From Candidatus Nanopelagicaceae bacterium (GTDB lineage: Bacteria; Actinomycetota; Actinomycetes; Nanopelagicales; Nanopelagicaceae), in contig VEQG01000006.1 of NCBI GenBank assembly GCA_018883345.1, positions 1 to 64,000 on the forward strand: 64,000 nt of DNA. The letters are read 5' to 3'. Positions within the stretch are counted from its first letter, which is position 1, and the number at the start of each line of letters is the position of its first letter. Shown here piece after piece: positions 24,211 to 28,253 of the stretch. The notes under the pieces were generated by a model, which saw only the letters and a program-made list of their open reading frames with translations, was not told the DNA's origin and made no database searches. Both the position numbers and the translations under genes were made by a program.

Positions 24211-26109
24211 CTACCCTACAGTGATAGTTACCTTACTTCCACGAAGGACTTTACTTCCCACCTTAGGTGAAATTGCAGTTACCTGCTTGATGGCCTTGGT
24301 GCCCATTCGCTTAATTGTCACCTGTAAATCAAGCGCCGTTAAAACTGACTTTGCTTTGGTTTCAGATAGTGAGTACACATTTGGGATAAAGACATAAGCG
24401 GATCCTTTAGAGATGATTAGAGAGAGCGCAGAACCCTTTGGATAGCTTTTAACTTCGGATGGGTTTTGAGAGATTACCGCACCGGCAGGGACGGTTTCGC
24501 TGAATTCATATTTTGGAGTAACTTTAAAACCTGCGGTTGTTAGAGTATTTAAAGCTTCTTCACCTGATTTATTAACGAAATTTACTAAAGGTATTTGTTC
24601 GATACCCTTACTTACAACCAATTTAATTCCGGCGCCACGTTTGACTTTTGTACCCATAACTGGGTCTGAGCTAATTACATAGCCTTTAGGAATTTTCTCA
24701 TTGAAAATCTGCTGCACAACTGGTTCGGCAATCGGAATAGAAGAGAGCACTTTGATAGCTGCTTCAACTGTTAATTGGGCAACCATAGGAATTGAATATC
24801 TTTCAGGTCCTTTTGAGAGGGTAATCGAAACTACCGCGCCCTCTTTAACTTTATCTCCACCTGCGGGACTAGTGGAGATGATGATGCCCTTTTGAAGATC
24901 TTCACTAAATTCCTCTTTTGAAATTTCGCTAGTTAATCCAATCGGATTTAGTAAATTTTCGGCATCAGTCATGGTTCCGCCAACAAGTGATGGCACTGTG
25001 ACTCGCGCACCTGGGCCAATCAAGCTCCACCAACCACCAATACCAACTGCAACTGCAAGGATTAGGGCAACTTTCCTAAACTTACGTTTAGGTTTCTCAA
25101 TTTTCTCTTTCTTTACCGGTTTAGAAATTTCACGAGTTATTTCTCGGGTAACTTCTTCTTCCACGATTTCCTTGCGCCTAGCTGGTTTAGCAGGTTTAGC
25201 TGGTTTAGGTAGCTCTTGGCGAACCGGCAAATCTAGTTCGAGGCTCATTTGTTTCTTGGCGGGATCGGCTTTAATTTGAATATTACGCAGTAGTGCGGCA
25301 AAAGTTGCACCATCTTTCGGGCGATCATCAGGATTTCTGCTGGTCGCCGCATAAATCAATTCATCTAAGTCTTTTGGAATTTTTATGCCTTTAGAACTCA
25401 CTTTAGGGATATCTTCATTGACATGCAGGTAGGCGATTTGAAGCGGAGAGTCACTGACATGGGGACGCTTGCCAGTCAGCATTTCGAATGCCATGACGCC
25501 AATCGAATAGATATCACTTCGAGCATCAGAGATGCCACGTTGTACTTGTTCAGGTGAAAGGTAGGAAACGCTTCCAAGAATTACGCTGGCTTCAGCAGTC
25601 ATAGTTTGACCAAGATTTGTTCCGCGCGCTAAACCAAAATCGGCAATTTTAATTCTGCCATCATGCGAAATCAGAATGTTTTCAGGCTTTATATCGCGGT
25701 GAACGATTCCAATTTGATGTGCCGCTGCAAGCGCAGAAATTACAGGGGATAAGTAGTTGATAGTTTCGTTTACTGAGAAGGTCTCTTTACTTGCAATCAA
25801 TTCACGAAGCGTCTGTCCTTCAACTAATTCCATCACCAAGAAGACTGCTGGAATGCCTGATTGATTCCAACCTTGATCCATCACATTTACGATATTTGGG
25901 TGCGATAAAGATGCCGCAGCTTTTGCTTCTCGGATAAAGCGGGTAATGAATTCTTCATCTTGAGCTAGGTGGGGATGCATTATTTTTACTGCAACTTTTC
26001 TATCTAATCGAGTATCTAGACCTTCGTAGATAGTTCCCATTCCGCCATTAGCAAGAATTCGGAGTAGCTCGTAGCGGTTATCTATTAATTGGCCGCTCAA
26101 ATCACTCAC
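24211..26109 (-). CDS. PknB-type Ser/Thr protein kinase with four PASTA repeats
   Basis: Kinase motifs HRDIKPENIL, DFGLAR; TM segment; PASTA-like repeats (VPSLVGG.., IPMVAQ.., IPLVNFV.., IPNVYS..); GTG start. Confidence 0.92.
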   Translation of the reverse strand: MSDLSGQLIDNRYELLRILANGGMGTIYEGLDTRLDRKVAVKIMHPHLAQDEEFITRFIREAKAAASLSHPNIVNVMDQGWNQSGIPAVFLVMELVEGQTLRELIASKETFSVNETINYLSPVISALAAAHQIGIVHRDIKPENILISHDGRIKIADFGLARGTNLGQTMTAEASVILGSVSYLSPEQVQRGISDARSDIYSIGVMAFEMLTGKRPHVSDSPLQIAYLHVNEDIPKVSSKGIKIPKDLDELIYAATSRNPDDRPKDGATFAALLRNIQIKADPAKKQMSLELDLPVRQELPKPAKPAKPARRKEIVEEEVTREITREISKPVKKEKIEKPKRKFRKVALILAVAVGIGGWWSLIGPGARVTVPSLVGGTMTDAENLLNPIGLTSEISKEEFSEDLQKGIIISTSPAGGDKVKEGAVVSITLSKGPERYSIPMVAQLTVEAAIKVLSSIPIAEPVVQQIFNEKIPKGYVISSDPVMGTKVKRGAGIKLVVSKGIEQIPLVNFVNKSGEEALNTLTTAGFKVTPKYEFSETVPAGAVISQNPSEVKSYPKGSALSLIISKGSAYVFIPNVYSLSETKAKSVLTALDLQVTIKRMGTKAIKQVTAISPKVGSKVLRGSKVTITVG

Positions 26110-26118
26110 GGGTGGATT

Positions 26119-26613
26119 TTAGGTGGTGGTTATTATGAAATCGGCGAATTCGCGGGTGCGTTCATCGATAAAGTGTTTAGCTTCACGAATTTGCCACTCT
26201 CTAATTCTATTTTCGTAGTCGAGACCATCTCTATCGAGCACCCGGTTGAAGGCAATTTCGGGCTCGGCCTCAACCCAATACAAAGTACTGGCGTATTTGC
26301 GAGCAAGACTTTGACCCGCGCCAACCCCTTCGATAATTAAAGCCTCAGCAGGCTGAATCTCTCTATACCCTTCGAAGCGATATTTGTGCCAATCAAACGT
26401 TTGCACTTGGCAAGCTTTACCTTCCGAAAAATTATTCAAGATAGTGAGTAATGTGTTTGATAAGCCCTGTTCAAGTGCTTCATCCCAACCATTGTAGTGA
26501 TCATCCAAATGAATAACTTCGCACTGCAACTCATCTTGCAATTTCAAAGAGAGCGTAGTTTTGCCAGATCCTGCCGGTCCATCTATGAGTATGATTTTTG
26601 GATTTTTAGCCAT
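26119..26613 (-). CDS. Uridine-kinase-like P-loop kinase; candidate thiamine (or ribonucleoside) kinase by operon context
   Basis: Walker A GPAGSGKTT, LIIEGVGAG; start codon lies inside the 3' end of the PnuC-family gene. Confidence 0.75.
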   Translation of the reverse strand: MAKNPKIILIDGPAGSGKTTLSLKLQDELQCEVIHLDDHYNGWDEALEQGLSNTLLTILNNFSEGKACQVQTFDWHKYRFEGYREIQPAEALIIEGVGAGQSLARKYASTLYWVEAEPEIAFNRVLDRDGLDYENRIREWQIREAKHFIDERTREFADFIITTT

Positions 26614-27161
26614 CTAACCCATCCAACTATTGCAATTATGGTGAATGCAAAATAAAGCACCGCTGTAAACCAGTATTTAAGTAATCCATATTGAATTGTC
26701 GCTAAAGTATCTACAGCAAACCAGACTGGCCAAGATTCATATTTTTCATAAACCATTAAGACTTGGGCAAGGAAAGAACCAAGAAAAATAAGGGCATCGG
26801 TTCGGTAAGCCGCTGCGCCAATGCTTTGCAACCATGGCGTAAAAATCAACCAAGCAACTATTAGTCCTGCGATGCATAGTGCGCGATCACGTTGCGTTAA
26901 TTTTCCAGGTTTCGCACCCTTTGGACCCCAGCCAAACCAACCCCAGATTCCTGCCAATATAAAAACAATTTGAAGAAGCGCCGAAGCAATTAATTCCACG
27001 CTCCAAAAGAAAAATCCATACAGCGCGCTAGAGATAATCCACCATGGCCAAGTAATTCTCTTAGTGGTGGTTCCGTACCAAACTCCAATAAAGCTTGTAA
27101 GTGCTGCAAAGAATTCAAGGAAAGATACTTGATAACCCCATGCTGTGAAAAAGGTAGACAT
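26583..27161 (-). CDS. PnuC-family transporter, probable PnuT-type thiamine transporter
   Basis: PnuC-like membrane protein (FLEFFAALTSFIGVWYGTTTKRITWPWWIISSALYGFFFW); preceded by a TPP riboswitch. Confidence 0.85.
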   Translation of the reverse strand: MSTFFTAWGYQVSFLEFFAALTSFIGVWYGTTTKRITWPWWIISSALYGFFFWSVELIASALLQIVFILAGIWGWFGWGPKGAKPGKLTQRDRALCIAGLIVAWLIFTPWLQSIGAAAYRTDALIFLGSFLAQVLMVYEKYESWPVWFAVDTLATIQYGLLKYWFTAVLYFAFTIIAIVGWVRWLKIQKSYS

Positions 27162-27162
27162 A

Positions 27163-27262
27163 AATTCCTCCCTGGCTCGCATTATCGAACCGGTTAGGCG
27201 GTCGACCCTTGGTTATTTACCTTTGGGTCCTCTCAGCCAACTTTTGGCTCCCGCGTTGAACT
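27163..27262 (-). promoter_or_regulatory. TPP (THI-box) riboswitch
   Basis: Minus-strand RNA AGUUCAACGCGGGAGCCAAAAGUUGGCUGAGAGGACCC...GGGUCGACCGCCUAACCGGUUCGAUAAUGCGAGCCAGGGAGGAAUU matches the THI-box core (GGGAGCC / GGCUGAGAGG / AACCGG..GAUAAUGC.AGC.AGGGA). Confidence 0.9.
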
Positions 27263-27266
27263 AACT

Positions 27267-28253
27267 TTACCGCGCTCTCTTGGTAACTAACGAAACCATC
27301 TCGGTCAGCATTTCACGTGCCTGCTCAGAAAGTTCTTCGCGATTGATGGCATCGAGCGCCTCTTCAGAAAGCTTCTCGATTAGCTCTTCAACATGGGTAG
27401 GCGCACCGCTTTCTAGAATTGCCTCTGCTAAACCATCAACCTCTTGCGTACCAAGTTTCAGTTGAATTAATTTCTTTATTTGATCATTTCCGCGATCATG
27501 TGCAAATGCAATTAATGCAGTTCGCTTTCCTTCACGCAAATCATCGCCGGCAGGCTTTCCAGTCTCGGAAGGATCACCAAAGACACCAAGCAGGTCGTCT
27601 CTTAATTGAAATGCTTCGCCAAGAGGCAATCCATATTCAGAATAGATTGTTAAGTATTCATCGAAATTTTTCGGTTGTGCAAGCGCGGCACCAAAATGAA
27701 GTGGACGCTCAATGCTGTACTTACCAGATTTATAACGTGCAATTTTGAGAGAGCGTTCGACGCTAAAGCTACTTTGCGTTTGTTCGTAAACATCTAAGAA
27801 TTGTCCAGCCATTAATTCGGTTCGCATTATGTCGTGAATGCTATTTAAATTTGAATTTTCAATTCTTGTATCATGCAAAGATTTTTCATTCCAAACTAAT
27901 GCTAGATCACCAATCAAGATGGCAGCAGCTTCTCCAAATTGTTTATGCATGGCAGGTTTGCCGCGTCTAGTATCTGATTTATCCATTAAATCATCATGAA
28001 TTAATGCACTTGCTTGTAGGAATTCGAGCGAGGCACAAGCTTCATAGATACTGGAATTAAGTTCGCCGTTGGCGCCTAAGAAGCCAATTAATGAAAATAG
28101 TGACCTAAAACGTTTACCTTCTGAAAGATATTCTTTGAGCGAATCTGCAATTGGCTTTAATTGCTCATCTATTTCTGTAATTAGCGCACAATTGGTGGCA
28201 ATTTGCTTATCAAGAGCGCTGTTTACGCCGATTCGTAATTCATTAATGTTCAT
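27267..28253 (-). CDS. Polyprenyl synthetase (GGPP synthase-like)
   Basis: Aspartate-rich motifs LIHDDLMDKSDTRRGKPAMH and FQLRDDLLGVFGDPSETGKPAGDDLREGK. Confidence 0.9.
   Translation of the reverse strand: MNINELRIGVNSALDKQIATNCALITEIDEQLKPIADSLKEYLSEGKRFRSLFSLIGFLGANGELNSSIYEACASLEFLQASALIHDDLMDKSDTRRGKPAMHKQFGEAAAILIGDLALVWNEKSLHDTRIENSNLNSIHDIMRTELMAGQFLDVYEQTQSSFSVERSLKIARYKSGKYSIERPLHFGAALAQPKNFDEYLTIYSEYGLPLGEAFQLRDDLLGVFGDPSETGKPAGDDLREGKRTALIAFAHDRGNDQIKKLIQLKLGTQEVDGLAEAILESGAPTHVEELIEKLSEEALDAINREELSEQAREMLTEMVSLVTKRAR

Follow-up and report, generated by a model that had tools for sequence, protein, structure and literature searches.

The window analysed here is a 64,000-nucleotide stretch of a contig from a Candidatus Nanopelagicaceae bacterium, and its minus strand carries a compact locus in which a structured leader RNA (27152–27266) precedes a gene for a PnuC-family transporter of 192 amino acids (26583–27161) and a gene for a P-loop kinase of 164 amino acids (26119–26613). 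The leader, which resembles a THI box, starts directly 3′ of the stop codon of a polyprenyl-synthase-like gene (27267–28253; named from sequence motifs), and its end reaches into the start of pnuC. About 10 bp beyond the kinase gene lies a gene for a PknB-like Ser/Thr kinase (24211–26109; recognized by eye from sequence similarity), the syntenic anchor of the locus. All four genes lie on the minus strand. The original prediction placed a THI-box-like RNA directly before the PnuC-family start codon and the start of the kinase inside the 3′ end of the transporter gene. Both placements are borne out: the RNA covaries and is kept across the order, and the two genes overlap by 31 bp that include the pnuC stop codon. 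At 85% completeness and 6% contamination of the assembly, absences in this genome alone carry little weight, and we used instead a sample of 121 related genomes from 14 genera of the order.

The TPP riboswitch model RF00059, which had been proposed as a check, matches the leader over its full length (1–105, at 27152–27266 of the minus strand), and this is the sole match in the 1.40-Mb genome. The E value is 1e-4 locally and 5.6e-5 genome-wide, but the score of 33.3 bits is below the Rfam gathering score of 54.3 bits, so a default Rfam scan of the window lists nothing. In the order sample, matches with an E value of 1e-3 or better occur in 94 of the 121 genomes, 83 of them directly upstream of a pnuC homologue. 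The fast search filters missed some pnuC leaders that a motif scan recovered, and with that scan the core was readable in 107 of 108 extracted pnuC leaders, the remaining one being cut by a contig end. The consensus structure has 97.4% of cells paired (88.9% in shuffles) and 64 doubly changed cells (18.3 in shuffles). As a single sequence the window copy folds only weakly better than its shuffles (z = −1.83), so the structural argument rests on covariation. Given its order-wide position before pnuC, its readable core and its covariation, the match is not a chance one.

The leader shares with TPP riboswitches the P2 and P3 helices, two characteristic loops and a position ahead of a thiamine gene. 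The 5′ strand of P2 (GCGG, 27251–27254) pairs with CCGC at 27198–27201 in the cmscan alignment, the minimum free energy fold and the alignment fold. The J3-2 loop CUGAGA (27231–27236; U39–A43), the T-loop that binds the pyrimidine in TPP riboswitches (PMC3764141), is intact in the window and invariant in the 33 aligned leaders of alignment A1, as is the UAAU of L5. An order-specific model (R1) scores the window leader at 78.3 bits. A Shine–Dalgarno sequence, GGAGG (27167–27171), adjoins the 3′ end of the aptamer five bases before the ATG, an arrangement that suggests translational repression on ligand binding.

The pyrophosphate sensor sets the leader apart from RF00059. In E. coli numbering, the canonical arm reads C57 C58 U59 G60 A61 U62, P5, L5, P5 and C77 G78 U79 A80 G81 G82; U59, G60, C77, G78 and A80 are reported to be highly conserved, G60, C77 and G78 bind the metal that coordinates the pyrophosphate, and G78 touches the pyrophosphate directly (PMC3764141). 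The P4/P5 arm of the window (27171–27193) consists of CCGGUUCG (27193–27186), the loop AUAAUG (27185–27180) and CGAGCC(A)GG (27179–27171), and is helical throughout apart from one bulge, in place of the J4-5 pyrophosphate-binding loop of canonical TPP aptamers. The five sensor residues are not kept in the pnuC leaders: four residues per side are contracted to two, with a one-base bulge in addition in many, and the two sides pair. Among 46 distinct arms, position −5/+5 is paired in 44 (GU, AU or GC in most) and position −6/+6 in 39 (mostly AU, CG or GC), whereas the best of 2,000 shuffles reached 43 and 33 paired arms, respectively. RNAalifold recovers the arm helix unaided, and the helix also forms when the window copy is folded by itself; in a count of its pairs, 98% of cells are paired and four of the six pairs show double changes. 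Of the TPP core originally quoted for this RNA, the pyrimidine sensor is canonical and the pyrophosphate-sensor arm is not.

Other TPP elements of the same order, located before thiC, thiB, thiO and a cytosine/purine/thiamine-type permease gene, retain the CCUG and CG..AGGGA signature in essence. Scored with a model derived from the variants, the variants tested reach 78–97 bits and these canonical elements 32–53 bits. A matching shortening of P3 was dropped as a feature of the variant, as canonical elements overlap in P3 length. Beyond the order, in a sample taken from the top of the match list of the variant model (biased, and not representative), the contracted arm is found in pnuC leaders of families f104 and f100, and before genes for CytX-like permeases (f88), a YkoE gene and thiO (f6); nearly all thiC-linked elements examined there have the canonical arm.

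The transporter matches PF04973 (1.4e-35) and is a relative of the protein in PDB 4qtn (1.2e-6); it also scores 62.2 bits, over the cut-off, with TIGR01528, a model of nicotinamide riboside (NR) transporters. A published rule holds that the specificity of a Pnu transporter can be predicted from its riboswitch class (PMC7749635), and here pnuC stands under a THI-type riboswitch, in variant form. The protein is probably a PnuT, that is, a thiamine importer. A WxxWxxxD motif in the transporter was tried as a PnuT signature and dropped: a second, more distant PnuC also has the D, and the PnuC proteins under TPP elements in families f100 and f101 have N.

The kinase matches AAA_18 (4.5e-9) and, over nearly its whole length, NF005115/PRK06547 (111.2 bits), an actinobacterial family of hypothetical P-loop kinases that has the same motifs and is its closest named relative. 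However, the equivalog cut-off of 173 is not reached, and in a tree the kinases of the window's order and of family f104 form a branch separate from the named family. Uridine kinase models give 37–40 bits (TIGR00235, 36.6 against an equivalog cut-off of 220.3), and the ThiK model TIGR02721 is not among the best 25 of the 54 NCBIfam matches. The conserved residues are GPAGSGKT (GxAGxGK), D37, Y40-G-W43, W75, E95-G-V-G98, W113 and R124..R128-D129, and the Walker A motif, the catalytic Asp after strand 2, the EG-x-G motif and the R..RD lid are shared by virtually all 116 extracted full-length sequences. Judged from these motifs, the layout is that of a small-molecule kinase of the PRK/uridine-kinase type, in which three nearly invariant tryptophans could stack on an aromatic substrate. 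An AlphaFold model made from the one sequence was unusable (mean pLDDT, 31.3). The family need not be specific for thiamine, because in one genome (G128; L130 3551–5659) a PRK06547 kinase domain is fused to aminodeoxychorismate synthase component I (PabB). Around PRK06547 homologues elsewhere in the phylum we saw no thiamine genes by eye, in GC-rich DNA with poor calling of open reading frames, and a contig search for related loci returned two short P-loop matches only, both in CPR bacteria.

Across the order, transporter and kinase travel together. The kinase is found in 118 of the 121 genomes and a close pnuC homologue in 110; in 108 of these 110 the kinase gene directly follows pnuC on the same strand (gap of −28 to 106 nt; median, 46), and the other two cannot be judged, with a piece of pnuC at a contig end in one and a piece of the kinase gene in the other. 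Nine genomes lack a close pnuC or have a fragment of it (G007, G044, G059, G076, G081, G089, G108, G111 and G115), and in all nine the kinase gene stays just upstream of pknB. Most of them have a stronger TPP element elsewhere, before genes for a thiamine-binding protein and permease pair (ThiB/ThiP), identified in G111 by a match to the thiamine ABC binding protein model TIGR01254 (1.3e-61) next to a ThiP-like permease and in the other genomes by sequence similarity. With the kinase at its place and ThiB/ThiP under a TPP element elsewhere, the transporter has therefore been swapped and the kinase kept.

Only genus g9 (three genomes) has no kinase, and this genus has ThiE. In G035, the g9 genome in which the locus was read (L120), the slot upstream of pknB is occupied by thiE, a TPP element, a gene for ThiO (TIGR02352, 328 bits) and a ThiG-like gene. 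All three kinase-less genomes are among the five of the sample that have ThiE, for which the naive chance is 3.5e-5, although this coincidence may be a single event because the three belong to one genus.

Three groups of relatives outside the order bear on the role of the kinase. The sister family f104 has the same RNA variant, pnuC and kinase in five genomes. In the unrelated family f103 (G711; L310 632–2208), a canonical TPP element precedes the gene for an NMT1/THI5-like binding protein (PF09084, 2.4e-56), the end of which overlaps the start of a gene for a PRK06547-type kinase (123 bits). This kinase lies at a different locus and on another branch of the tree than that of the window, and the operon is an independent link of the kinase family to thiamine. 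In families f100 and f101 (L260, L276; L269 941–1483), a pnuC gene under a TPP element is followed by a gene for a NadR-type P-loop kinase (PF13521, 3e-23 in f101), which in f101 (L269) occupies the same locus, upstream of pknB. TPP-controlled pnuC genes are thus followed by P-loop kinases of more than one kind, of the NadR type in f100/f101 and PRK06547-like in the window's order, and the protein resembling the ribosylnicotinamide kinase of NadR is a candidate for another non-orthologous thiamine kinase.

The rest of the thiamine pathway has a gap that such an enzyme could fill. ThiL, which converts thiamine monophosphate (TMP) to TPP, is encoded in 120 of the 121 genomes (over the cut-off in 112) and in the window's own genome (217.7 bits), where its absence had originally been proposed as a check. 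TMP usually comes from ThiE, which passes the cut-off in only five genomes. Searches for thiamine pyrophosphokinase (TIGR01378/PF04263) found none in the window's own genome and none in the 121, with control genomes positive, and no protein in the order sample reaches the ThiK cut-off. TMP therefore needs a source, and a genome with ThiL but no ThiE is understandable only if thiamine is turned into TMP or TMP itself is taken up. A distant ThiK/GntI-like APH kinase (55–78 bits) that could act on thiamine is present in about half of the genomes. We set it aside as the thiamine kinase: the copies inspected adjoin a dimethylglycine-dehydrogenase-like gene, GntI is the higher-scoring model for the copy in the window's own genome, and many complete genomes gave no match. 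On contig C11 of the window's genome (L223; 22273–23268 and 25898–26566), such an APH kinase lies next to a dimethylglycine-dehydrogenase-like gene, and a second, distant PnuC homologue lies at the contig end.

From the operon structure, the RNA homology and its covariation, the linkage of the kinase to transport genes, the presence of ThiL and the absence of known alternatives, we infer a thiamine salvage operon, with a probability of roughly 0.78. PnuT would admit thiamine by facilitated diffusion, the P-loop kinase, translated together with PnuT, would trap it by converting it to TMP, and ThiL, encoded elsewhere in the genome, would turn TMP into the cofactor TPP. The leader RNA is predicted to occlude the Shine–Dalgarno sequence beside the aptamer and to repress translation when the supply of thiamine suffices. 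Comparative genomics (108 pnuC–kinase pairs and the transporter swaps) strengthens the uptake-and-trapping module and the thiamine link that were originally proposed. It also upholds a non-orthologous thiamine kinase; the pyrophosphokinase named as its alternative is less likely, because ThiL in this genome and in 120 of the 121 makes TMP the more probable product.

A THI-like leader does stand before pnuC, as the original label of TPP riboswitch implied, but that name is not secure because the pyrophosphate-sensor loop is gone. TPP is the default candidate. The leader may still sense it by way of a rearranged arm, in which case loss of the internal loop would be a tolerated structural change; we give this slightly better than even odds. 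Contracted arms also occur before thiO operons (f6) and permease genes (f88), which are normally TPP-controlled, and their recurrence before thiO calls for caution about a changed ligand; end-product regulation by TPP would also fit the pathway. Against this, the residues lost from the leader are those reported as highly conserved and lie at the metal and pyrophosphate site (PMC3764141), and the pyrophosphate group is reported to be mandatory for the E. coli thiM switch, which bound thiamine at 50 μM compared with 50 nM for TPP (PMC4112796). The ligand may thus be other than TPP, and an aptamer without the pocket may sense thiamine or TMP. The most far-reaching proposal joins both parts: a variant aptamer that arose from the TPP riboswitch when its pyrophosphate sensor was deleted, and that responds to unphosphorylated thiamine (or TMP), would control a transporter paired with a hitherto unrecognized family of P-loop thiamine kinases, and this family would supply the first step of salvage that is missing across a streamlined actinobacterial order. 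We hold this proposal tentatively and, as a whole, consider it rather doubtful.

It is unlikely that the kinase acts on something unrelated and stands beside pnuC only through the conserved gene order from polyprenyl synthase to pknB. The persistence of the kinase at the locus where pnuC is not linked to it (nine genomes read) would agree with such a role, as would the fusion to PabB in another lineage, but genus g9 misses exactly the kinase and has thiamine biosynthesis genes in its place, the f101 slot holds a different P-loop kinase, and in f103 the kinase family is linked to a TPP element at an unrelated locus. We find it quite improbable that the kinase is a new thiamine pyrophosphokinase, forming TPP in one step by pyrophosphate transfer: P-loop kinases of the uridine-kinase type transfer one phosphate, and ThiL, kept in all but one genome though ThiE is found in five, would have no substrate. 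The lack of a known thiamine pyrophosphokinase throughout the sample speaks for direct synthesis, as does the pairing of PnuT with Tnr3 in Bacteroides (PMC5613172). Least probable of all is an NR module in which PnuC imports NR, the kinase is an NR kinase and the THI-like leader is incidental, for although PnuC passes the NR transporter model and NR kinases belong to the same PRK/uridine-kinase superfamily, the leader is THI-like in 107 of 108 cases, the kinase remains where ThiB/ThiP under a TPP element replaces pnuC, a relative of it shares a TPP-element operon with an NMT1/THI5-like protein, and riboswitch class predicts transporter specificity (PMC7749635).

Parts of the thiamine salvage operon have precedents. 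In the part of Kang et al. (2017; PMC5301498) drawn on here, a THI element with a putative PnuT is proposed in four acI genomes, acI strains are called thiamine auxotrophs that lack nearly all de novo and salvage enzymes, and acI is said to outnumber every other group in most freshwater lakes. This is the same RNA–transporter pair as in the window, and that part of the paper names neither an adjacent kinase nor an altered aptamer arm. The original expectation that generic annotation would miss the thiamine link therefore applies to the kinase, the THI element and PnuT having already been published. From their gene content and their match to that description, the sampled genomes seem to be acI-like (Nanopelagicales).

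In the pnuT–tnr3 operons of Bacteroides, in which PnuT is coupled to the thiamine-phosphorylating enzyme Tnr3 (PMC5613172), and with the PnuT of Shewanella woodyi, a PnuC-family transporter under a THI element is likewise followed by a thiamine-phosphorylating enzyme. The second enzyme in Bacteroides is Tnr3/TPK, whereas the window has a P-loop kinase unrelated to it, in a genome that has kept ThiL. ThiK of E. coli (TIGR02721) carries out the reaction proposed here, thiamine to TMP ahead of ThiL, but has the APH/choline-kinase fold. In the open-access literature we found no report of this P-loop kinase as a thiamine kinase, nor of the aptamer variant; the kinase assignment and the variant both appear to be new.

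With a candidate named for the first step of salvage, along with its transporter and switch, the vitamin B1 economy of acI becomes testable, and the objects to be tested are small: one soluble protein and one RNA of 110 nt. If confirmed, a second thiamine kinase fold would alter how the pathway is annotated in Actinobacteria with ThiL but without ThiK or TPK. An RNA with the pyrimidine pocket and without the pyrophosphate site would be a natural test of the phosphate specificity of TPP riboswitches. TPP-like elements with a contracted arm were also seen in other actinobacterial families (L258, L262, L264, L267, L268, L271 and L275).
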